DNA from: an uncultured Pelagibacteraceae bacterium
GTDB taxonomy: Bacteria; Pseudomonadota; Alphaproteobacteria; Pelagibacterales; Pelagibacteraceae
Length of the DNA stretch: 42,463 nucleotides
Reading direction: 5' to 3'
Assembly: GCA_902624045.1 (NCBI GenBank)
Contig: CACNVX010000009.1
Coordinates: forward strand, 1 to 42,463
Below are positions 13,891 to 26,128 of the stretch, in pieces. Positions within the stretch are counted from its first letter, which is position 1; every line of letters begins with the position of its first letter. Both the position numbers and the translations under genes were made by a program. The notes under the pieces are model-generated. The model was given only the letters and a program-made list of their open reading frames with translations, did not search any database and was not told the DNA's origin.

Positions 13891-14532
13891 ATGCATTTAA
13901 TCCATCGAGGGATTGTAAGCAAAAAATATAAAGAAAACCTTTTAAATTCATTTAAACAATCATTTCAAAAAGGATTTGGAATAGAAACCGATATACACGC
14001 AACTAAAGATCATAAATTTATCTGTTATCATGACTTTACTTTAAAAAGAATTTTTAAAAAAAAAGAGAGTATAAAAAACCTAAATTATCAAAAAATTAAA
14101 GAAATCAGCGTTAAGTATCAAAAGCCAATACCTCTGCTCCAAGATTTGCTTAAGATATCAAAAAATAAATTCTTTTTATTTATTGAGATTAAACCTAAAT
14201 TTTCAACAAAATTGCTTAAAAAACTGATTAAAGAAACATCTAAATATTCAAAATGTGTATTTATCTCCTTTAAACATCAAAATATTTATAACCTTTTAAA
14301 ATTAAATAAAAAAACAAAGGTAGGTTTATCTTTTTCACCACCTACAAACATAAAATCAATATCAAAGAAATCAAAAATAAAAAATGTTGATTGCTTAATT
14401 CTTGATAAATCTTACATAAAAAACAAAAAAATTCAGGGCTTAAAAATTAAAAAATATTTTTATACAATTAAAAACAAAACCGAATTTATAAAATATAATA
14501 AAAAAAATAACTTAATATTTGAAAATTTATAA
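13891..14532 (+). CDS. ugpQ: Glycerophosphodiester phosphodiesterase
   Basis: A 213-residue TIM-barrel GDPD enzyme that would release glycerol-3-phosphate and an alcohol (such as choline or ethanolamine) from deacylated phospholipids. His5-Arg6 begin the barrel (HLIHRG), Glu32 and Asp34 are metal ligands in GIETDIHAT, His47-Asp48 are in CYHDFT, and EIKPK holds Glu99 and Lys101. It is shorter than E. coli UgpQ (~247) and extremely Lys-rich, with the C-terminal barrel strands poorly conserved. No signal peptide, so it is cytoplasmic. Its 3' end overlaps the convergent dioxygenase gene by 6 bases. Choline released here could feed the betaine genes nearby, which is inference. Confidence 0.8.
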   Translation: MHLIHRGIVSKKYKENLLNSFKQSFQKGFGIETDIHATKDHKFICYHDFTLKRIFKKKESIKNLNYQKIKEISVKYQKPIPLLQDLLKISKNKFFLFIEIKPKFSTKLLKKLIKETSKYSKCVFISFKHQNIYNLLKLNKKTKVGLSFSPPTNIKSISKKSKIKNVDCLILDKSYIKNKKIQGLKIKKYFYTIKNKTEFIKYNKKNNLIFENL

Positions 14533-15651
14533 TTTCTGCTTTAGATAATTTAATCTTCCAATTATTTCATCTCTATCCATATAATAACCTTGGAGATGTC
14601 TATTACCTGAATTAGGATCAAACTCAGTTCTGCCGTGAAGCAGTCTTCTATTATTAAATGAAAAAATATCTCCTGGTTCTAACCTAAAATTAATTTGAAA
14701 TTTGGAATCATGTAAAAGATTTCCAAAACGATGGTGTGCTTTATAAACCGAATCCATTATGTCTGGATGACAATCTAATGCATCTAAAGTTGCAATGCTA
14801 TATCTAACATCATTATAGTCCCCATCTTTAGTTAGTGAAATAGCTGTACCATGGACGCTTCTTATTGCTTCTTGTGTATAATCTTTATCTCTAAATTTTA
14901 ATGGTGTGTTTACTAAAATATCGAAAATATCTTTTTCGTTTTTTCTCAAAAAATCAGCAACCGCAAAAGCATCAACAGCTGATGAATCTCCTCCTTTTGC
15001 TGAATTTACTAAACAATGTAGGAATTGATAACCTGGAGGATTTTCAAACCAAGGTAAATCCATATGATTATTTAATGCATGAGCTGTATAAGCAGAATTA
15101 TTCGGTTTAGGAATATTTATTACCTCAAAAGGGGTTTTAAAAAATGTTTCACGAGTATGACTTATACGATTTAAAACATTTAATGCAGAATTTTTTTCAA
15201 TTGGTGAATTTTTTACAATTGCAATACCAGTATGGTGCAAAAGTTCTAACCATTTAATTAATCCAGATTCAGAATTTATTATTTCATCATGATCAATTTG
15301 AATAGATTTTAAATCTTTTTCTAAAGAGTTGTCCCAAAGCTTGTATGGTGAAATATATTTGCGTTTATGTTTTAAAGTATAACAATTTTCTCGTAACCAT
15401 TTAGGATCATAATAACTTTTATGATCTCCCTCGCTCCATTCAATTTCCAATTTTCCATCTGAACTCATTGAATATGTTTTGGGATTAATACTTTGAGACA
15501 CTTTTAAAATATTAAACATTCTGTGTCTCGAATCTTTATCGTGCGCAGATGGACAATTATCTCTTAGCCAGAGATAGTTAAATTTACTCTCTTCACCATC
15601 ATTCCAAACAATTTTTAGATATGTAGAATTTTTTTCTAATTTCGAAATCAT
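14527..15651 (-). CDS. Gamma-butyrobetaine hydroxylase-like Fe(II)/2-oxoglutarate dioxygenase (BBOX/TmpA type)
   Basis: 374 residues in two parts: an N-terminal DUF971-type domain (to ~100, with YLWLRDNCPS) and a TauD-type catalytic domain. The iron ligands are His196 and Asp198 in NNHMDLPWFENPPG and His339 in NNRRLLHGRTEF, with the 2-oxoglutarate Arg in GNRHLQGYYMDRD. BBOX makes L-carnitine from gamma-butyrobetaine. The closely related TmpA hydroxylates 2-trimethylaminoethylphosphonate, and sequence inspection cannot separate the two. The N-terminal zinc site is reduced: Cys33 remains but the following CxxC cysteines of BBOX are Ser/Ala/His. The gene is divergent (137 bases) from the ProXWV-type importer and close to carnitine dehydrogenase, which favours carnitine synthesis feeding degradation. 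Confidence 0.8.
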   Translation of the reverse strand: MISKLEKNSTYLKIVWNDGEESKFNYLWLRDNCPSAHDKDSRHRMFNILKVSQSINPKTYSMSSDGKLEIEWSEGDHKSYYDPKWLRENCYTLKHKRKYISPYKLWDNSLEKDLKSIQIDHDEIINSESGLIKWLELLHHTGIAIVKNSPIEKNSALNVLNRISHTRETFFKTPFEVINIPKPNNSAYTAHALNNHMDLPWFENPPGYQFLHCLVNSAKGGDSSAVDAFAVADFLRKNEKDIFDILVNTPLKFRDKDYTQEAIRSVHGTAISLTKDGDYNDVRYSIATLDALDCHPDIMDSVYKAHHRFGNLLHDSKFQINFRLEPGDIFSFNNRRLLHGRTEFDPNSGNRHLQGYYMDRDEIIGRLNYLKQKL

Positions 15652-15788: not shown

Positions 15789-16805
15789 ATGAAGTTTTTA
15801 AAAAGATTAACTATCTCGATTTTCCTTTTATCATCTTTGGTTGTGTCCAATGCAAACGCAGGTGACTGTAAGGCTAGATTGGGAGATTTTGACTGGAGTA
15901 GTGCTAATATTCATACAGCTATTACTACTTTTATTCTTGAAAAAGGATACGGTTGTGAAGTTTCTGTAACTAAAGGAAGTACAACTCCGATTATGGCTGC
16001 TCATTATGACGGTCAATTAGATGTTATTACTGAAGTTTGGTACGACAACATCATTGGTAATTACAAACCTCACGAAGAGGCAGGTACAATTATCCATATG
16101 GGAACAAACACACCAGACTCTCAGCAAGCATTCTATGTTGATAAAGCTACTGCTGATAAATACAATTTAAAATCAGTTGAAGATATGAAAGATCCAAAAA
16201 TAGCTGCGCTATTTAAAGATCCAGAAGATCCTTCAAAAGGTAGAATGACAAGCTGTATATCTGGTTGGACATGCTACACTGTTAACTTGGTTAAACAAAA
16301 GGAGTATGGTTTAGATAAATACTACACAAACTTTGATCCAGGTTCAGGAGGTGCATTGGATGCTGCAATAGCGGGTGCATTTGCTAAGAAAAAACCAATC
16401 TTTACTTATTACTGGGCACCAACTGGTTTAATGGGTAAAGTTGATCTTGTAAGATTAAAGGAACCTAAATTTGATCAAGCATGCTGGGATGCAATGTCTG
16501 CAGTTGTAGAAGACATTAAAGCAAATGGTCCAGATGCTTATAAACCTTCTTGTGCAAGTGAGTACAGAGATATGGCTTTAACTAAATCTGTTCTTGCTAC
16601 TTGGGCAAAAGCTCATCCAAAAGAAAATGAGTTTATTGGAAAATATACTATTCCAACAGCTACTGTTAACAAGATGTTGGCATTTTATGAAGATGAGTCA
16701 GGTGGTGATATGGAAGCTACTGCAATAGAGTTCTTAAAATCAGAAACTATGTGGAAAGACTGGGTACCAGCTGATGTTGCTAAAAAAGTTTCAGCAGCAT
16801 TATAA
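15789..16805 (+). CDS. proX: Glycine betaine/carnitine/choline-type ABC substrate-binding protein
   Basis: A secreted 338-residue OpuAC-family binding protein. Residues 1-24 are a signal peptide ending in NANA before GDCKARLGDFDW. The mature protein has the DFDWSSANIHTAI opening of ProX/ChoX-type proteins and several Trp/Tyr residues (VWYDNI, TYYWAPTG, WTCYTV) of the kind that form aromatic boxes around trimethylammonium groups. Cysteine pairs suggest disulphides. A strong ribosome site, AAGGAG, lies 8 bases before the ATG. It is followed by a perfect terminator hairpin and then by permease and ATPase genes. Proximity to a complete carnitine-to-betaine route suggests carnitine or gamma-butyrobetaine as a ligand, but glycine betaine, choline or DMSP are equally possible by family. 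Confidence 0.87.
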   Translation: MKFLKRLTISIFLLSSLVVSNANAGDCKARLGDFDWSSANIHTAITTFILEKGYGCEVSVTKGSTTPIMAAHYDGQLDVITEVWYDNIIGNYKPHEEAGTIIHMGTNTPDSQQAFYVDKATADKYNLKSVEDMKDPKIAALFKDPEDPSKGRMTSCISGWTCYTVNLVKQKEYGLDKYYTNFDPGSGGALDAAIAGAFAKKKPIFTYYWAPTGLMGKVDLVRLKEPKFDQACWDAMSAVVEDIKANGPDAYKPSCASEYRDMALTKSVLATWAKAHPKENEFIGKYTIPTATVNKMLAFYEDESGGDMEATAIEFLKSETMWKDWVPADVAKKVSAAL

Positions 16806-16827
16806 TCACTAAGAAAAATTTATTGAT

Positions 16828-16848
16828 AGAGCCCCTTTATGGGGCTCT
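16828..16848 (+). terminator. Intrinsic terminator between proX and proW
   Basis: AGAGCCCC-TTTAT-GGGGCTCT forms an 8-bp GC-rich stem with a 5-base loop, followed by TTCTTT, 22 bases after the proX stop. It should cut most transcripts after the binding-protein gene and let a fraction continue into proW and proV. Confidence 0.88.
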
Positions 16849-16869
16849 TTCTTTAAATAAAGTAAAACT

Positions 16870-17901
16870 ATGGAAGCATTAAAGAAAAATAAAAAAATAT
16901 TTTTTAATATTGGTTTGTTAGCTATTTTTGTTTGGTTGTTAATAACTAGTTACAGTCAATCAAAAAGAAAACCTGATAATATAGGAGAATTATTAAATGA
17001 TTTTTCATGGTTAGGAGGTAAATGGCCTAAGTGGTTAGACCTACCATTAATGAATTGGATAAATTCTGGTTTTAAAACACTTAACGAAAAATATGGATAT
17101 ATATTTGAGGCTATAAATAATGTTCTTCTTTATATGCTAATGCTTGTAAAAAACTTTTTAATTCAAGCTCCATGGCCTTTAGTAATACTTGGTGTTATAG
17201 TATTAACTTATTTTGCAAGCGGTAGAAAAATAGGAACAACAGTATTTGTAGGTTTTTGTACTTTTTTTATAGGTTTTCTTCACCCAATATTTTGGCAAAA
17301 AGCGATTGAAACAACTGCTATAATGTTAATTGGGATATTTCTTTGTGTAGTTGCAGGTATTCCATTAGGAATAGCGATGGCAAGAAGTGCAAGAACTAGA
17401 AATGTCATTTTACCAGTTTTAGATTTAATGCAAACTATTCCTAGTTTCTGTTATTTGATACCTGGTATTATGTTATTTGGCTTAGGAGCAGTCCCTGCGA
17501 TTATAGCCACATTTATTTATGCAGTTCCACCTTTGGTAAGGCTTACAGATTTGGGAATAAGATTAGTTGATACTGAAGTTATTGAGGCTGCAGACGCATT
17601 TGGTGCAAGTAAAAAACAAAAGTTATGGGGAGTACAAATGCCTTTAGCTTTACCAAATATAATGCAAGGGATTAATCAGTGTACAATGATGGCATTAGCT
17701 ATGGTTGTTATAGCATCGATGATAGGTACTAGAGGTTTGGGAGATGAAGTTTTACTTGGTCTTCAACAATTAAATGTGGGAAGAGCTGCAGAAGCAGGAA
17801 TTGCTATTGTCCTTTTGGCAATAGTTCTTGATAGAATAACCCAATCTTACGGAGAAACTCTCCAAGAGAGAACAGCACCGAATACAAAGAAAGGTAAATA
17901 A
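16870..17901 (+). CDS. proW: Quaternary-amine ABC transporter permease (ProW type)
   Basis: A 343-residue inner-membrane permease. The N-terminal ~90 residues hold one helix and an amphipathic segment, as in ProW. The transport domain after ~130 carries the long EAA loop IEAADAFGASKKQKLWGVQMP and the conserved MQTIPSFCYLIPGIMLFGLG helix. It lies downstream of the proX terminator and overlaps proV by one base (TAATG). No ribosome site is strong; TAAAGTAAAACT precedes the ATG. The assignment to the ProU/OpuA class is firm, the individual substrate is not. Confidence 0.9.
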   Translation: MEALKKNKKIFFNIGLLAIFVWLLITSYSQSKRKPDNIGELLNDFSWLGGKWPKWLDLPLMNWINSGFKTLNEKYGYIFEAINNVLLYMLMLVKNFLIQAPWPLVILGVIVLTYFASGRKIGTTVFVGFCTFFIGFLHPIFWQKAIETTAIMLIGIFLCVVAGIPLGIAMARSARTRNVILPVLDLMQTIPSFCYLIPGIMLFGLGAVPAIIATFIYAVPPLVRLTDLGIRLVDTEVIEAADAFGASKKQKLWGVQMPLALPNIMQGINQCTMMALAMVVIASMIGTRGLGDEVLLGLQQLNVGRAAEAGIAIVLLAIVLDRITQSYGETLQERTAPNTKKGK

Positions 17902-18926
17902 TGTCAAAAATTGAAATTAATAATGTTTACAAAATTTTTGGTAATAATCCTCAATCAGTAATGCCTATGGTAAAAGAAGGAGCAAACAAAGAGGAAGTTC
18001 TTGAAAAAACAGGTCATACAGTTGGTCTAGATAACGTTTCATTAAAAATAGAAGAAGGTGAAACTTTTGTTTGTATGGGTTTATCTGGATCTGGAAAATC
18101 AACTTTAATTCGACATTTAAATAGACTAATCGATCCTACAGATGGTGAAATAATTGTTGAAGGAACAAATGTAATGTCTTTCAATAAAGAACAGCTTATA
18201 GAATTTAGAAGACATAAGATGAGTATGGTATTTCAGAGATTTGGTTTATTTCCTCACAAAACAGTTATTCAAAACGTTGGATATGGATTAGAAATGCAAG
18301 GTAAACCATTGGAAGAAATAAACAAGACCGCTATGGAAAAAATTGAAGCAGTTGGTTTAAGTGGATTTGAAAACCAATTTCCTAATCAATTGTCAGGTGG
18401 TATGCAACAACGTGTTGGTTTAGCAAGAGCTCTAGCAACTGATAGTGATATAATGTTAATGGATGAAGCTTTCAGTGCTTTAGATCCTCTAATTAGAAGT
18501 GACATGCAAAAACAATTGCTTGATCTTCAATCAGAATTAAAAAAGACAATCGTATTTATTACTCATGATTTAGATGAGTCTTTAAGACTCGGGGATCACA
18601 TTGGAATATTGAATGCTGGAAAACTAGTTCAAGTTGGAACTCCAGTTGATATTATTATGAATCCTGCAGATGATTATGTTAAAGCATTTGTTAAAGATGT
18701 TAATAGAGCAAAAGTAATTAAAGCTAAAATTATTATGAAAAGTACTAACGAGTCGGATGATATTGATAAAACAAATTTAATTAAAGTAAATGAAGATCAA
18801 TTTATTGAAGAATTTTTACCACAAATTGTATGCTCAAATTCTAATTGTGAAGTAGTTGATAAGAATGGAAATGTTAAAGGCTATATATCTAATAAAGAAT
18901 TACAGACATCATTAACAAAAACGTAA
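17901..18926 (+). CDS. proV: Quaternary-amine ABC transporter ATPase (ProV type)
   Basis: A 341-residue ATPase of the quaternary-amine transporter class: the N-terminal extension with a glycine-linker before VGLDNVSLKIEEGE is class-typical. Walker A is GLSGSGKSTLIRHLNRL, the signature LSGGMQQRVGLARAL, Walker B IMLMDEAFSALDPLIR, and the switch His lies in FITHDLDESLRL. The C-terminal regulatory part (~275-341) is short, with only one recognisable CBS-like repeat (CEVVDKNGNVKGYISNKEL), whereas E. coli ProV has two over ~400 residues. Osmotic gating through a CBS pair may therefore be lost, fitting a nutritional rather than osmoprotective role. Co-translated with proW. Confidence 0.9.
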   Translation: MSKIEINNVYKIFGNNPQSVMPMVKEGANKEEVLEKTGHTVGLDNVSLKIEEGETFVCMGLSGSGKSTLIRHLNRLIDPTDGEIIVEGTNVMSFNKEQLIEFRRHKMSMVFQRFGLFPHKTVIQNVGYGLEMQGKPLEEINKTAMEKIEAVGLSGFENQFPNQLSGGMQQRVGLARALATDSDIMLMDEAFSALDPLIRSDMQKQLLDLQSELKKTIVFITHDLDESLRLGDHIGILNAGKLVQVGTPVDIIMNPADDYVKAFVKDVNRAKVIKAKIIMKSTNESDDIDKTNLIKVNEDQFIEEFLPQIVCSNSNCEVVDKNGNVKGYISNKELQTSLTKT

Positions 18927-19718: not shown

Positions 19719-20113
19719 TTTGAAAATCTTTTGTACTTTGGGAGTTTATCAGTTATTTGATAAAAATCTGATTTAGTACCAACAAATATATTTCTCATTG
19801 TTTTAAGACCTGTTTTTCCGTTAAACATACCTGCTGCTATCGAAATATTATCTGAGTTTTTAAACTTAAAAAAAATACTAGCTCCACATTTATTACAAAA
19901 ACCTCTTTTTGCTCTGCTAGATGATTTAAACCATTTAAGTGTTTTTTTATTTATAAATTTAATATCCTTTTCTTTAACATTAGAATAAGCACCATATGAT
20001 CCATGAGTTTTTCTACACTGAATACAATGACAATTTGAAACGTTTCTGTGTTCACCACTAGTTTTAAATTTAACTCCCTTACACAAACAATTTGCTGTTA
20101 AAGTTTTTTTCAT
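19715..20113 (-). CDS. GFA/CENP-V family zinc protein
   Basis: A 132-residue protein with the seven-cysteine pattern of the glutathione-dependent formaldehyde-activating (GFA) family. A structural zinc site comprises Cys9, Cys11, Cys73 and Cys76 (FCNKCGAS), and a second site comprises Cys28, Cys30 and Cys33 (NCHCIQCRKTHGSYGAY). It is the last gene of the carnitine dehydrogenase operon, overlapping the preceding gene by one base. Formaldehyde is released when methylated amines are demethylated, so a detoxifying role would fit, but many GFA proteins have no demonstrated enzyme activity and I do not assign one. Confidence 0.8.
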   Translation of the reverse strand: MKKTLTANCLCKGVKFKTSGEHRNVSNCHCIQCRKTHGSYGAYSNVKEKDIKFINKKTLKWFKSSSRAKRGFCNKCGASIFFKFKNSDNISIAAGMFNGKTGLKTMRNIFVGTKSDFYQITDKLPKYKRFSN

Positions 20114-21057
20114 TATCTTCTAATTTTATTTTCGTATTTTTTTCTTAATTTTTGAAGGTCAACTAAATACTGATCTCTTATATTTGATATCATTGCAACT
20201 GATTTACCTTTTGCTTGTTTTGCTGTCCCTGAAATAAGTCTAGATGATAGTTTTTTTGATAATTTTGGAGCTTTTAATTTTGTCCAAGGTAATTTTAAAG
20301 CAGGTCCAAATTGTTCGAGCATATGTTTCATTCCAGTTTTTCCACCTGCTAGATGAAAAGTTAAAAATGTACCCATTAAGGACCATCTTAGTCCTGGACC
20401 ATCTTCAATTGCTCTATCTAATTCTTCTGTTGTTGCATATCCCTCATTAATAATATGTAAACCTTCTCTCCATAAAGCTTCTTGTAATCTATCAGATAAA
20501 TATCCAGGTAATTCATTCTTTACCATAATTGGATTCATGGAGATAGATTTATAAAATTTTTTAGCTAAATTTAAATTTTTTCTTGAGGTTCTTTTGCCTG
20601 GAACAATTTCTACAGCAGGTAAGAGATAAACGGGGTTAAAAGGGTGTCCAATTATACCTCTTTCTGGATTTTTACATTTTGAATAAATTCTTGATGGCAA
20701 CAATCCTGATGAACTTGAGGAGATTATTGAATTTGATTTAGTATATTTTCCAATTGTTTTCATCAATTTAGTTTTTAAATAATAATTTTCTGTTGCACAT
20801 TCTTGGATAAAATCTGCATCTTTTAATGCTTGTTCTATTGAGGTAAAAAAATGAAAATTTTCTAAATTTAATTTTTTTTTGTTAAAAAGTTTTTTTACAA
20901 ATGGCCATGTTCTTTTTATTTCAGATATTAAATTTTTTTTTAACTTAATATCCTTATCAAAGGCAAAAACGATTTTGTTGTGAGCTAAACAGCGTATGAT
21001 CCACCCCGCTCCAATCACTCCAGTTCCAATGACTGCAACTTTTTTCAAGTGAGACAT
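20113..21057 (-). CDS. cdhA: L-carnitine dehydrogenase
   Basis: A 314-residue NAD-dependent enzyme of the 3-hydroxyacyl-CoA dehydrogenase fold that oxidises L-carnitine to 3-dehydrocarnitine. The Rossmann motif is GTGVIGAGW (11-19), and the catalytic His137 lies in GHPFNPVYLLPAVEIV with Glu149. The C-terminal part carries features I associate with carnitine dehydrogenases: LWREGLHIINEGYAT, DGPGLRWSLMGTFLTFHLAGG and GMKHMLEQFGP. Many bacterial homologues are fused to a thioesterase; here the enzyme is unfused and a separate thioesterase lies at 22709-23176. It overlaps the BKACE gene (TAATG), the usual partner. Lambda-crystallin-like dehydrogenases are the alternative, made unlikely by the neighbours. 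Confidence 0.87.
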   Translation of the reverse strand: MSHLKKVAVIGTGVIGAGWIIRCLAHNKIVFAFDKDIKLKKNLISEIKRTWPFVKKLFNKKKLNLENFHFFTSIEQALKDADFIQECATENYYLKTKLMKTIGKYTKSNSIISSSSSGLLPSRIYSKCKNPERGIIGHPFNPVYLLPAVEIVPGKRTSRKNLNLAKKFYKSISMNPIMVKNELPGYLSDRLQEALWREGLHIINEGYATTEELDRAIEDGPGLRWSLMGTFLTFHLAGGKTGMKHMLEQFGPALKLPWTKLKAPKLSKKLSSRLISGTAKQAKGKSVAMISNIRDQYLVDLQKLRKKYENKIRR

Positions 21058-21944
21058 TACTTGTGTTTAACAAGTTTTAATTTTTCTCTTGTTTCAGCTG
21101 GTGTCATTGGTGAATATCCAAGTTCATCTATTATTCTTATTGCTTTTTCAACTAATTGAGCATTAGTAGCAAGTTTACCTTTAGATAAATATAAGTTGTC
21201 TTCCAGTCCAACTCTGGGATTTCCTCCCATTAGAACAGTTTGAGCAACAAATGGCATTTCGTTTTTTGAAATTGCAAATCCTGACCATACACCCTCCTTG
21301 GGCATTATATCTTTCATTGCTTGCATTGCTGATATTGTTGCAGGTGCTCCCCATGGAATTCCTAAACACATTTGAAAAAGAGGTGGATCACTTAGTAGTC
21401 CCTCTTTGTAAATCTGTGAACCAAACCACATATTACCTAAATCAAAAGCTTCTATTTCTGGTTTAACTTTAATTTCTTGCAACTTTTTTGCAGCTTTTCG
21501 TAAATCATTTGGAGTGTTAACTGTAATAACAGAACTATCACCAAAATTTAGAGTTCCAGCATCAAGTGTACAAATCTCAGGAAGAAATTGTTCTGCATTT
21601 GCAATTCTTTCCATTACATTTGCCATATCAGTCATCGGTCCAAATTCTAAAGGATTTTTTCCTTGTCCAATATCAAGGTCTCCTCCCATACCAGTTGTTA
21701 AATTCAAAATTACATCTGTGTCACTTGATCTGATTCTATCAATAACCTCTTTATATAATTCCAATCTTCTACTTGGAGTTCCGTCATCCTCTCTAACATG
21801 AATATGAGCGATTGCAGCTCCAGCTTTTGCAGCCTCTATTGAGGCTTCGGCAATTTGTTCTGGTGTTTTTGGTAAATCGGGATGCTTACCAGCAGTATCA
21901 CCTGATCCAGTTACTGCACACGATATAAAAACTTTATTGCTCAT
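21057..21944 (-). CDS. cdhB: BKACE-family beta-keto acid cleavage enzyme (3-dehydrocarnitine cleavage)
   Basis: A 295-residue zinc-dependent TIM-barrel enzyme (former DUF849). His47 and His49 in AHIHVRED are the zinc ligands; GGNPRVGLEDN near 245 and the FDLGNM segment are family signatures. In carnitine operons this enzyme converts 3-dehydrocarnitine plus acetyl-CoA to betainyl-CoA plus acetoacetate. Its position directly upstream of and overlapping carnitine dehydrogenase makes that assignment strong. It starts only 35 bases from the divergent aldolase-like gene, with a dyad between them. The family is otherwise broad (3-keto-5-aminohexanoate cleavage and others), so the substrate rests on context. 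Confidence 0.85.
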   Translation of the reverse strand: MSNKVFISCAVTGSGDTAGKHPDLPKTPEQIAEASIEAAKAGAAIAHIHVREDDGTPSRRLELYKEVIDRIRSSDTDVILNLTTGMGGDLDIGQGKNPLEFGPMTDMANVMERIANAEQFLPEICTLDAGTLNFGDSSVITVNTPNDLRKAAKKLQEIKVKPEIEAFDLGNMWFGSQIYKEGLLSDPPLFQMCLGIPWGAPATISAMQAMKDIMPKEGVWSGFAISKNEMPFVAQTVLMGGNPRVGLEDNLYLSKGKLATNAQLVEKAIRIIDELGYSPMTPAETREKLKLVKHK

Positions 21945-21979: not shown

Positions 21980-22708
21980 ATGGAAATAACCGAATTACAA
22001 AAAGATTTAGCTGCTACTTTTAGATGGACTGCAAGACTAAATATGCACGAGGGTGTTGCGAACCATTTTAGTGCGTGCCTTCCAGGCTCCTCAACAGATT
22101 TTTATGTCAATAAAGCTGGTATACATTTTAGTCAAGTAAAAGCTAGCGATCTAATTTTAGTGACTAAAGAAAATATTAATGAATTAAAGAATAAGCCTAA
22201 TTTAATTGATCCTACAGCAATTAGTATCCATGGTGCAATACATCAAAAAATTCCACATGCAAAATGTATTTTTCATTGTCATTCAAAATATGCAACAGCA
22301 TTATCAACATTAAAAGATCCTATAATGAAACCTATAGATCAAAATACTATGATATTTTATAATAGAGTCTCAGTTTATAATGAATTTGGAGGATTAGGAT
22401 TTGAAGATGAAGCTATGAAGATGGCTAGTGCTTTAGGAAACAAACAACACATGTTACTTGCTAACCATGGAATTATTACAACAGGACAGACCGTTGCAGA
22501 AGGTTTTAATTATTTATATTATTTTGAAAAAGCAGCAGAAACTTATTTAACTGCTTTATCCTCAAATAAGGAATTGAACATAGTTAGCGAAGATATCGCT
22601 GAAAAAACAGCTCAAGAAACTGCAAACTATCCAATTGATTTAGCAAAATTACATCTTGATCAAATAAAATTAATTTTAGATAAAGAAGAACCAGATTATA
22701 AAAATTAA
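21980..22708 (+). CDS. Class II aldolase/adducin-family protein
   Basis: A 242-residue protein of the class II aldolase fold. Zinc ligands are visible as His99 and His101 (FHCHSKYA) and His163 (ANHGII), and the N-terminal NHFSACLPG segment matches the phosphate/substrate loop. The position of the usual catalytic Glu in fuculose- and ribulose-phosphate aldolases/epimerases (PSSE) reads PTAISIHGAIH, so it lacks that acid and belongs to the adducin-like branch whose reactions are mostly undefined. It begins the plus-strand operon with the thioesterase abutting directly (0-base gap). It may act on a hydroxylated or keto intermediate of the quaternary-amine pathway; I cannot name one. Confidence 0.82.
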   Translation: MEITELQKDLAATFRWTARLNMHEGVANHFSACLPGSSTDFYVNKAGIHFSQVKASDLILVTKENINELKNKPNLIDPTAISIHGAIHQKIPHAKCIFHCHSKYATALSTLKDPIMKPIDQNTMIFYNRVSVYNEFGGLGFEDEAMKMASALGNKQHMLLANHGIITTGQTVAEGFNYLYYFEKAAETYLTALSSNKELNIVSEDIAEKTAQETANYPIDLAKLHLDQIKLILDKEEPDYKN

Positions 22709-23176
22709 ATGTCAATACATATAGCAAATCAAATTATCAAAAAAGAATGGACAGACTATAATAATCATATGAACATGGCTTACTATGTTCTTATTTTTGA
22801 TCAAGTTTGGGAAATAATGTTACAAAAATTTAAGATGGGTGAAGACTCTGCGAAAACTGACAAGATGAGTACCATGGTTGTTGAAACACACACAACTTAT
22901 AACAATGAGGTAAAGGAAGGTGAAGAGGTGGAAATTAATCTTACCTTTTTTGATCACGATAAAAAAAGATTGCACTTCAAAATGGAAATGCTTGAAAAAA
23001 CCACAAAAAAATTATCAGCAACTTTGGAAATGTTATCTTTGTATATTGACTTAAATAAAAGAAAAGTAGCAGAATTTGAAGAAGACAAAATTAAGTTAAT
23101 GGGCGATTTTATTAAATTAAACAAATCAAATTTTAAAGATAATGATCTTGTAATAACTGGAAAGTTGAAAAAATAA
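22709..23176 (+). CDS. cdhC: Hotdog-fold acyl-CoA thioesterase (likely betainyl-CoA thioesterase)
   Basis: A 155-residue 4-hydroxybenzoyl-CoA-thioesterase-type hotdog protein: EWTDYNNHMNMAYY (13-26) is the active-site loop with Asp16 and the HxN turn, followed by the long helix and VVETHTTYNNEVKEGEEV. In known carnitine catabolic operons such a thioesterase hydrolyses betainyl-CoA to glycine betaine, completing the route begun by cdhA and cdhB, which diverge 700 bases away. It abuts the aldolase-like gene and overlaps the dioxygenase gene by one base. The fold is certain from the motif; the substrate is inferred from context. Confidence 0.8.
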   Translation: MSIHIANQIIKKEWTDYNNHMNMAYYVLIFDQVWEIMLQKFKMGEDSAKTDKMSTMVVETHTTYNNEVKEGEEVEINLTFFDHDKKRLHFKMEMLEKTTKKLSATLEMLSLYIDLNKRKVAEFEEDKIKLMGDFIKLNKSNFKDNDLVITGKLKK

Positions 23177-24009
23177 TGGAAATTAAGTTACTTTCTGGTG
23201 CATTAGGAGCTGAAATAAAGGGTATAGATTTAACTGATGTTTCAGATTTCAATTTTAAGAAAATAAATGATCTTCTTTTAGAACATAAAGTTATTTTTTT
23301 TAGAGACCAACCTATTACAAAAGAACAACAAATTGCACTTGCTGAAAAGTTTGGACCTTTAGAAACTCATGCTTATGTAAAAGGATTAAATGATTATCCC
23401 GAAATTGTCAGAATAATAAAAGGTAAAGAAGAAAAAAACCAATGGGGTGAGAATTGGCATAGTGACGTTAGTTATAATGCAAAACCAACAAAAGCAGTAA
23501 TATTAAAATCTTTAAAAATCCCTCCTGTTGGTGGTGATACCTGTTTTTCCAATATGGAGTTAGCTTGGGAAACACTAGATAATAAAATTAAAGAGAAAAT
23601 AAAAGATAGAAAAGCAATTCATAGCTCACTTGGTGCAGAATTTTTCATAGATAACTATAAGTATATGGAAGGAAATGAAAAAAGAAATTATGACTCTTAT
23701 TCAAATGAACATCCAATTGTTAGAACACATCCAGAAACGGGTAAAAAAATTTTATTTGTTAATTGGACTTATACCAAACAAATTATTGGATTGGAGAAAG
23801 AGGAAAGTGATCAAATATTAAAAGAAATATTTGAGCATCAAGCAAGATTGGATCTAACATGTAGATTTAGCTGGACAGAAAATACTGTTGCGATCTGGGA
23901 TAATAGAAGTGTTATTCATTATGCAATTGCAGATTTTTTTCCTGGAAGAGGTTTGGGATATGAGAGAATTATGGATAGAATTGCAATTGAAGGGGATAGA
24001 CCTCAATAA
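23176..24009 (+). CDS. TauD/TfdA-family Fe(II)/2-oxoglutarate dioxygenase
   Basis: A 277-residue single-domain dioxygenase. Iron ligands: His95 and Asp97 in NWHSDVSY, and His248 in IWDNRSVIHYA; the 2-oxoglutarate Arg lies in GYERIMDRI (264-268). EHPIVRTHPETGK and KIPPVGGDTCF are classic TauD-family segments. Family members hydroxylate taurine, alkylsulfates, aryloxyacetates and some amines or phosphonates. Here the next gene, 5 bases on, is a PhnZ/TmpB-like HD oxygenase. Such oxygenases act on a 1-hydroxyphosphonate made by a preceding 2-oxoglutarate dioxygenase, so this protein is the best candidate for that first hydroxylation. PhnY and TmpA come from other dioxygenase branches, so the pairing would be new or the substrate different. 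Confidence 0.83.
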   Translation: MEIKLLSGALGAEIKGIDLTDVSDFNFKKINDLLLEHKVIFFRDQPITKEQQIALAEKFGPLETHAYVKGLNDYPEIVRIIKGKEEKNQWGENWHSDVSYNAKPTKAVILKSLKIPPVGGDTCFSNMELAWETLDNKIKEKIKDRKAIHSSLGAEFFIDNYKYMEGNEKRNYDSYSNEHPIVRTHPETGKKILFVNWTYTKQIIGLEKEESDQILKEIFEHQARLDLTCRFSWTENTVAIWDNRSVIHYAIADFFPGRGLGYERIMDRIAIEGDRPQ

Positions 24010-24014
24010 TTATA

Positions 24015-24551
24015 ATGCAAGTAGTTGAAAAAATAATATCAAATTTTACCAATAACCAATCTCTATATATTGGTGAGAATGTAACTATGTCTCAACACAT
24101 GATACAAGCTGCAATGTTAGCTGAAAAAGCTAAATGTAAAAAAGAGGTCATATGCTCATGTTTATTACATGATTATGGGCATTTCATTATTGAAAATCCA
24201 GACGAATTAGTTGAATCTAATTTGGATGGCGAGCATGAAAGTATAGGATATGAATATTTAAAAAGTTTTTTTAAAGAAGAGATTGTAGAACCAATTAAAT
24301 ATCATGTTCTCGCTAAGCGTTATTTAGCTAGGAATAAAAATTATTATAATAAACTCTCAGAGGCTTCAAGAGTAAGCCTTAACTTACAAGGTGGAGTTTT
24401 AAATGATGACGAATGCAGTGAGTTTGAGAAAAAAAAATATTTCAAATCATCAATTCTTGTTAGAAAATTTGATGAAGCGGCAAAAAAGACAGACATCAAA
24501 ATGAAGTCTATTCATCAATATAAAAAATTACTAACATCAAGTCTTATATGA
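24015..24551 (+). CDS. HD-domain mixed-valent diiron oxygenase, PhnZ/TmpB-like
   Basis: 178 residues. The spacing of key residues matches PhnZ (numbers recalled from the literature) almost one to one. The substrate-gating pair is Tyr18-x-x-Glu21 in LYIGENVTMSQHM. Candidate iron ligands are His28, His52-Asp53 (LLHDYGH), His74, His97 and Asp153, with His56 and Lys101 (YHVLAKRYL) as phosphonate contacts and a SLNLQGG loop at 121-127. Such enzymes cleave the C-P bond of a 1-hydroxyphosphonate with O2. PhnZ yields glycine and TmpB yields glycine betaine, each plus phosphate. The gene follows a 2-oxoglutarate dioxygenase by 5 bases and overlaps the GMC gene (ATGA). In a trimethylamine island TmpB-like chemistry is the attractive reading. 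myo-Inositol-oxygenase-like or hydrolytic HD proteins are less likely given the Tyr/Glu pair. Confidence 0.75.
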   Translation: MQVVEKIISNFTNNQSLYIGENVTMSQHMIQAAMLAEKAKCKKEVICSCLLHDYGHFIIENPDELVESNLDGEHESIGYEYLKSFFKEEIVEPIKYHVLAKRYLARNKNYYNKLSEASRVSLNLQGGVLNDDECSEFEKKKYFKSSILVRKFDEAAKKTDIKMKSIHQYKKLLTSSLI

Positions 24552-26128
24552 ATTTTGATTATTTAATAATTGGTGCTGGTTCAGCTGGCTGTGTGCTTGC
24601 AAATCGATTAACTGAAAATGGCAAAAACACTGTAGCAATATTTGAAGCTGGTAAACCTAGTGATATTTGGAAAGTAAACATGCCACTTGCAATTTTATAT
24701 ACAATGCATGATCCAAAATATAATTACAAATATTATTCAGAACCAGAGCCCTATTTAAACAACAGAAAATTATTTTGCCCAAGAGGAAAAATGATTGGTG
24801 GTTGCTCTGCTCACAATGGAATGGTTTTTGTAAGAGGAAATCCAAACGATTATCAAAGATGGGCATCTTTTGGATTAACAGATTGGTCATATGAAAAGGT
24901 ATTGCCTTATTTTAAAAAAATAGAAACTTGGTCTGAAGGAGAGAATGAATATAGAGGTGGAAAAGGTATATTGCCAGTTAATCAATCTAAAAATAAAAAT
25001 CCCCTATTTAAAGCATTTATCAACTCGGCTGGAGAAGCTGGTTATAAAATAAATAATGATATGAATGGTAAGGAACAAGAAGGCTTTGGTATGTATGATG
25101 TAACTATTCATAATGGAGAAAGAGCCAGTGTTTCAAAATATTATTTAAATCCTGCAAAAAAAAGAAAAAATTTAAATATTTTTACTGACTCATTTGTTGA
25201 AAAAATTATTTTCGATGGAAAAAAAGCAATAGGTATTGAAGTAAAAATAAAAAATAAAGTTGAAAAAATTTACGCAAATAAAGAAGTTATACTAAGTGGT
25301 GGTGCAATTAATTCTCCTCAGTTATTAATGATATCAGGAGTTGGACCAAGTCAACATTTAAAAGATAAAGGAATTAATGTTGTTCACAATCTTGAAGGTG
25401 TGGGTAAAAATTTGCAGGATCATTTAGAAACTTACGTACAACAAGAGTGTAAAACATCTGACACTCTGTATTCATATATTAATAAATTGAATATGTTGAG
25501 AATTGGTATTCAGTGGTTTTTATCAAAAACTGGTCCATGCTCAACCTCATTTTTAGAAGCTGGCGGATTTTGTAAATCATCGCCTGAACGAGAATATCCT
25601 AATATTCAATTTCATTTTTTTCCTGCGTTTGTGATTGATCATGGATTAGTAGATCCTGATAGGCATGGATATCAATTACATGCAAGTCCAAACCATCCAA
25701 AGAGCAGAGGTCACATAACTTTAAATAGTTCAAATCCATACGACTATCCAAAAATTCAATTTAATTATTTAGAACATGAAGATGATTTAAAACAAACAAT
25801 AGAATGTATTCATGTTGCAAGAAAAATTTTAGGACAAAATTCTTTAAAACCATTTGCAGGAAAAGAAATTGGACCTGGAGAACATGCTGACACTAATGAA
25901 GTATTTGAGGAATATATTCGATCTAAGGCTGAAACTGCTTATCATCCATCTTGTACTTTAAAAATGGGAGAAGATAATATGGCTGTTGTCGATCAAAAAA
26001 TGAAAGTTCATGGTTTAGAAAATCTGAGAGTTGTTGATGCATCTGTAATGCCAGAAATAACAAGTGGAAACTTAAATGCTCCAACGTTAATGATAGCTGA
26101 AAGAGCTTCAGATTTTATTTTAAATTAG
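24548..26128 (+). CDS. GMC-family FAD oxidoreductase, choline dehydrogenase-like
   Basis: A 526-residue flavoprotein. The FAD motif is IIGAGSAGCVLANRLTE (7-23) followed by FEAG. The GMC signature 1 region reads RGKMIGGCSAHNGMVFVRG and signature 2 reads GAINSPQLLMISGVGP. The catalytic His lies in AYHPSCTLKMGED, with the C-terminal LNAPTLMIAERASDFIL ending typical of BetA. BetA oxidises choline to betaine aldehyde, but this family also covers many other alcohols. It is the last gene of the plus-strand operon after the HD oxygenase (4-base overlap), and its stop lies one base from the convergent ureohydrolase's stop. In this setting choline or a related trimethylammonium alcohol is plausible; no dedicated BetB or BetI is adjacent. 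Confidence 0.85.
   Translation: MNFDYLIIGAGSAGCVLANRLTENGKNTVAIFEAGKPSDIWKVNMPLAILYTMHDPKYNYKYYSEPEPYLNNRKLFCPRGKMIGGCSAHNGMVFVRGNPNDYQRWASFGLTDWSYEKVLPYFKKIETWSEGENEYRGGKGILPVNQSKNKNPLFKAFINSAGEAGYKINNDMNGKEQEGFGMYDVTIHNGERASVSKYYLNPAKKRKNLNIFTDSFVEKIIFDGKKAIGIEVKIKNKVEKIYANKEVILSGGAINSPQLLMISGVGPSQHLKDKGINVVHNLEGVGKNLQDHLETYVQQECKTSDTLYSYINKLNMLRIGIQWFLSKTGPCSTSFLEAGGFCKSSPEREYPNIQFHFFPAFVIDHGLVDPDRHGYQLHASPNHPKSRGHITLNSSNPYDYPKIQFNYLEHEDDLKQTIECIHVARKILGQNSLKPFAGKEIGPGEHADTNEVFEEYIRSKAETAYHPSCTLKMGEDNMAVVDQKMKVHGLENLRVVDASVMPEITSGNLNAPTLMIAERASDFILN

Follow-up and report, generated by a model that had tools for sequence, protein, structure and literature searches.

The window analysed here is a stretch of 42,463 nucleotides from an uncultured Pelagibacteraceae bacterium of the SAR11 group, and forms contig C9 of its source genome, which measures 1.15 Mb and is 83% complete. 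On its forward strand an aldolase-II-like gene (21980-22708) is followed by a 4HBT thioesterase, a TauD-type dioxygenase (TauD), an HD-domain protein (HD) and a choline-dehydrogenase-like gene of the GMC type (Table 1). The 4HBT stop and the TauD start overlap (TAATG), five bases separate TauD from HD, and HD in turn overlaps the GMC gene. An earlier note on this DNA had proposed that TauD and HD form an oxygenase pair cleaving carbon-phosphorus (C-P) bonds, and both open reading frames lie, intact, where that note had placed them.

Table 1. Features of the window that bear on the function of HD.
Feature	Position	Strand	Remarks
Gamma-butyrobetaine dioxygenase (BBOX)-like enzyme	14527..15651	-	N287 and R288 of TmpA missing, as is second Asn pair of BBOX
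ProX-ProW-ProV betaine-type ABC transporter	15789..18926	+	Possible importer of zwitterionic phosphonate (inferred)
L-carnitine dehydrogenase-like	20113..21057	-	PRK07066, 348 bits vs cut-off 414
BKACE, probable dehydrocarnitine cleavage enzyme	21057..21944	-	Function inferred from adjoining carnitine dehydrogenase
4HBT thioesterase, probable betainyl-CoA thioesterase	22709..23176	+	Resembles thioesterase part of carnitine 3-dehydrogenase fusions
TauD-type Fe(II)/2-oxoglutarate (2OG) dioxygenase	23176..24009	+	277 aa; triad H95/D97/H248, 2OG Arg264, clamp H65/R268, altered amine pocket V68/G91
HD-domain oxygenase, PhnZ/TmpB type, TmpB-like pocket residues M25, M29, F57	24015..24551	+	178 aa; sequence and model
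Y18-x-x-E21 gate of HD	24066..24077	+	Role in PhnZ/TmpB from PMC8177086
Span of diiron ligands H28, H52, D53, H74, H97, D153 and anion contacts H56, K101, S118, S121, R150	24096..24473	+
GMC choline-dehydrogenase-like gene	24548..26128	+	ATGA overlap with HD

Carnitine dehydrogenase, BKACE and a thioesterase are among the parts of the route from carnitine to glycine betaine. Such a predicted gene set adjoins here a choline route, represented by the GMC choline dehydrogenase, and this carnitine/choline-to-betaine operon around HD is conserved across SAR11. The view that the surrounding genes all lead to betaine holds for the carnitine dehydrogenase, BKACE, the 4HBT thioesterase, the GMC choline dehydrogenase and ProXWV, but not for agmatinase-like, EamA, LLM, TPP-enzyme and Liv genes, which have no obvious fit. 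No PhnD-type binding protein above its cut-off was found in the 83%-complete genome, and an Rfam scan of the window gave no match. ProXWV might admit a trimethylammonium phosphonate, which is a zwitterion.

Judged by its sequence and predicted fold, HD is a diiron oxygenase of the PhnZ/TmpB type, as the earlier note had it. A phmmer comparison with PDB sequences returned TmpB (E 2.4e-34) and PhnZ (7e-28) with no other match up to E 10, and hence no MIOX. These E-values, together with purifying selection on the gene (dN well below dS), rule out a chance match or a pseudogene. The AlphaFold2 model, built from 51 sequences (pLDDT 92.9), superposes on TmpB with Z 26.4 and rmsd 1.5 over 167 residues at 41% identity, and on PhnZ with Z 26.0; MIOX, the next family, is a weak fold match (Z 10.4). 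Since the Z-scores for TmpB and PhnZ are tied, the fold does not separate one from the other. This model comparison leaves HD close to both and far from MIOX, and in it the clustering with non-phosphonate HD oxygenases that would have spoken against the proposal was not observed.

The active site tells the same story. HD keeps Y18-x-x-E21, H28, H52-D53, H56, H74, H97, K101, S118, S121-LNLQGG, R150 and D153, in agreement with the earlier reading; of these, H56, K101, S118, S121 and R150 are presumed to contact the phosphonate, by assignment after PhnZ. Across a 51-row alignment that includes Phn-HD proteins from outside SAR11, H28, H52, D53, H56, H74, H97, K101, Q125 and R150 are invariant, while conservation reaches at least 90% at Y18, E21, S118, S121 and D153. 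None of the ligand and gate positions reported for PhnZ and TmpB (PMC8177086) is lost. TmpB, the (R)-1-hydroxy-2-trimethylaminoethylphosphonate oxygenase of Leisingera caerulea (PDB 6npa), shares with HD its fold, YxxE gate and six diiron ligands, and PhnZ (HF130_AEPn_1, PDB 4mln/4n71) shares the fold, the ligands and the phosphonate contacts. Profile scores are nevertheless below every curated cut-off: 170 bits (E 3.5e-50) against 214.6 for the Phn-HD profile TIGR03276, 158 against 300 for the TmpB profile NF049941, and, lower than for TmpB, 140 against 300 for the PhnZ1/HMP profile. Because its scores stay below these cut-offs and its neighbour is not a TmpA, HD is not filed as TmpB. Two divergent Phn-HD proteins (L183, L184) carry Gln, Gly and Cys at the places of His56, Gln125 and the final Asp, and are possibly not phosphonate oxygenases.

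The pocket of HD looks TmpB-like rather than PhnZ-like. At positions 25, 29 and 57 TmpB has M, M and F, PhnZ has Q, S and Y, and HD has M, M and F, within a signature (VTM-x-x-HM and HD-x-GHF) common to HD and TmpB; these residues come from the alignment pattern and not from published contacts, and the signature is a correlation. We sampled 60 Phn-HD loci of non-SAR11 Alphaproteobacteria, found their neighbours and placed their HD proteins in one alignment with those of SAR11 and with TmpB and PhnZ. The combination of Met/Ile25, Met29 and Phe/Tyr57 was present in 8 of 13 HD genes adjoining a BBOX/TmpA-type gene, against 1 of the 47 without such a neighbour (Fisher p 4e-6, which ignores the kinship of these related loci); five BBOX-paired genes lack it. 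The signature supports a TmpB-like pocket and is the main evidence for a trimethylammonium substrate.

Phn-HD proteins of SAR11 fall into two groups, found in 32/297 (group a, to which HD belongs) and 34/297 genomes. All 23 group a proteins examined, HD included, carry the TmpB signature, and none of 13 examined from group b has all three residues. Some group b genes (L037-L041, L046, L047, L036) lie near phnC/D/E-like transporter genes and have no adjoining dioxygenase, as if an already hydroxylated phosphonate were used; one of them (L036) adjoins phnX- and phnW-like genes. Phylogeny does not settle the placement of group a, whose branch is long and whose sequences, like those of SAR11 generally, have a deviant, AT-rich composition. 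A tree of 96 rows puts group a on a long branch with group b (84/59), whereas a careful search with 52 rows joins it to the TmpB clade (70/84, weak), and the grouping of a with b is not rejected against the latter tree (p-AU 0.39).

The neighbouring TauD has its closest PDB matches in RdpA/TauD and scores 228 bits with the taurine dioxygenase profile NF007104, below the curated cut-off of 313. Its AlphaFold2 model is poor (pLDDT 58), and comparison was made with the E. coli TauD reference sequence, a 100% match to 1gqw. The iron triad and the equivalents of the 2OG-binding Arg266 and of the anion/sulfonate clamp His70/Arg270 are kept. In contrast, Phe159 is replaced, and Tyr73 and Asn95, which contact the amine of taurine in E. 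coli TauD (PMC9304159), are changed to Val and Gly in 38/38 orthologues. Retention of the clamp with loss of both amine contacts would fit a substrate whose anionic end is a sulfonate or phosphonate and whose amine, which might for instance be quaternary, forms no hydrogen bonds of that kind. The pocket residues are alike whether HD is present or absent. Orthologues occur in 83/297 SAR11 genomes, and none was found outside SAR11 at E 1e-85 in 385 alphaproteobacterial genomes. This subfamily (23176-24009 in the window; L109-L128) accompanies the GMC choline-dehydrogenase-like gene in many islands that lack HD; in the other SAR11 family, an EamA transporter is encoded close by. Where TauD and GMC occur together without HD, the substrate might be a quaternary sulfonate, giving betaine aldehyde.

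To gauge the dependence of TauD and HD on one another, we used the islands of 80 genomes from the closest family, each defined by a GMC gene of at least 73% identity, with counts read off by hand. Both genes are present in 26 islands, HD alone in 6, TauD alone in 30 and neither in 18 (Fisher p 0.086; one genome with TauD on another contig was entered under neither). Each gene thus occurs without the other, so that neither depends on its companion, and the count does not support an obligate pair. The proposed pairing has partial support. Among 80 loci from named genomes, GMC directly follows HD in all 79 where this is visible, and the gene directly upstream is TauD in 63 and 4HBT in 16. HD proteins without TauD keep every key residue and are under purifying selection (pN/pS 0.16); where sampled, their loci form one clade in the 96-row tree and may therefore reflect a single loss of TauD. 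In one genome (G236, locus L067) a stop codon or a change of frame interrupts TauD, and HD is intact. In none of the 60 sampled non-SAR11 loci does a TauD gene stand directly upstream of Phn-HD. The adjoining TauD gene is, on this sequence evidence, a possible partner of HD.

Other hydroxylases were considered. Neither usual partner lies beside HD: a TmpA-type gene is absent there, the TmpA-like gene of this genome being on another contig, and the operon has no PhyH-type PhnY, the PhyH matches of this genome also lying on other contigs. The BBOX-like gene of the window (14527-15651) was rejected as a good candidate for the missing TmpA because, where HD-paired TmpAs read N-[NA]-R, its orthologues in SAR11 read S-[IVT]-A; it lacks N287 and R288, whose roles in TmpA have been described (PMC9296572). 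TmpA-like enzymes paired with HD elsewhere keep Arg288. The Asn residues that serve BBOX and TmpA are thus replaced in the BBOX-like protein, whose true substrate is uncertain. A better candidate for hydroxylation of 2-trimethylaminoethylphosphonate (TMAEP) would be a TmpA-like enzyme encoded elsewhere in the same genome (G000, contig C5:37477-38577; L271:1441-2544, minus strand). Its best family is TmpA (349 bits, cut-off 400; BBOX 275), and it keeps HTDNPYR-PVP and Arg288, with Pro for Asn287. The gene is far from any phosphonate gene. It is present in 30/32 genomes with group a HD, including 4 of the 6 without TauD, and in 170/297 SAR11 genomes overall, mostly with no HD partner; given this spread through genomes lacking group a, TMAEP hydroxylation cannot be its sole job. 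Some SAR11 genomes have a third paralogue (L278, L282, L284, L285), closest to trimethyllysine dioxygenase (L278: 258 bits, cut-off 268).

Most likely, HD is a TmpB-like C-P oxygenase feeding SAR11 betaine metabolism, and we hold it on balance probable that it acts on an N-methylated 1-hydroxyphosphonate and so provides a phosphonate inlet into the betaine operon. This reading builds on the kinship, predicted fold, ligands, pocket signature, gene context and selection of HD. A mixed-valent diiron centre would oxidatively cleave the C-P bond of the substrate, most likely (R)-1-hydroxy-2-(trimethylammonio)ethylphosphonate, to yield phosphate and glycine betaine. The other enzymes of the operon would make glycine betaine from carnitine, by way of the dehydrogenase, BKACE and the thioesterase, and from choline, by way of the GMC enzyme. 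The preceding 1-hydroxylation may be the work of the adjoining TauD or of the TmpA-like enzyme elsewhere, or the phosphonate may be imported already hydroxylated; uptake by ProXWV would suit a zwitterion. That HD instead cleaves some other 1-hydroxyphosphonate, imported or made inside the cell (1-hydroxy-AEP, hydroxymethylphosphonate or partly methylated AEP), is unlikely: its phosphonate contacts are generic and the 96-row tree unites it with group b, in part adjoining phnCDE or phnWX, but its pocket signature is not that of group b, the genes around it are directed to betaine, and the search for PhnD gave no protein above cut-off. We think it very improbable that HD is an oxygenase or hydrolase of a non-phosphonate such as a carnitine-derived or sulfonate intermediate. 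Its tightest ties are indeed to GMC and 4HBT and not to phosphonate genes, and its family scores are below cut-off, yet H56, K101, S118, S121, Q125, R150 and the YxxE gate are all kept and the MIOX-like alternative is structurally far.

As to the source of the hydroxylated substrate, the TmpA-like enzyme of contig C5 might make it in trans while TauD acts independently, perhaps converting taurobetaine to sulfite and betaine aldehyde for GMC. We regard this as possible, if on the unlikely side. The family assignment and conserved residues of the enzyme, its presence in nearly all group a genomes, TauD-less ones among them, and the common adjacency of TauD and GMC without HD speak for it; its occurrence in most genomes without group a HD, its Pro at Asn287 and its distance from phosphonate genes speak against it, and taurobetaine is a guess. 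Somewhat doubtful in our view is TauD as a dedicated partner, hydroxylating C1 of the phosphonate that HD then cleaves, which would add a third kind of dioxygenase partner to PhnY and TmpA. The tight operon, the frequency of TauD directly upstream, the kept clamp with its invariant Val and Gly, and the lack of TmpA phosphonate residues in the BBOX-like enzyme of the window favour such a role, but the many islands with one gene of the two, the likeness of the TauD pocket with and without HD, the selection on HD in the absence of TauD and the want of this pairing in the 60 non-SAR11 loci weigh against it. The fuller proposal of a new oxidative pair, in which TauD would 1-hydroxylate a quaternary phosphonate (a quaternary sulfonate in genomes without HD) and the TmpB-like HD would release betaine and phosphate, is likewise doubtful.

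Four oxidative routes are known, with TmpA, PhnY or PhoF as dioxygenases (PMC10574752). As in these, a 2-oxoglutarate dioxygenase here shares an operon with a probable C-P cleaving HD oxygenase; unlike theirs, it is of TauD type and often occurs without HD. HD differs from TmpB further in its carnitine/choline operon setting. A search limited to one literature library found no paper on this SAR11 gene set. One study describes a split of phnZ into substrate-specific subclades (PMC8316502), and a survey of marine phosphonate genes, in which 45% of marine phnZ belonged to Pelagibacterales, treated phnZ as a 2-AEP gene (PMC9381506). The SAR11 bacteria in which HD is found are very abundant in the ocean and are its commonest heterotrophs. 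If the reading of HD as a TmpB-like oxygenase is right, some of what counts as SAR11 'PhnZ' signal would reflect the use of betaine-like phosphonates and not of 2-AEP, and such use would yield both phosphate and glycine betaine, an osmolyte and carbon source.
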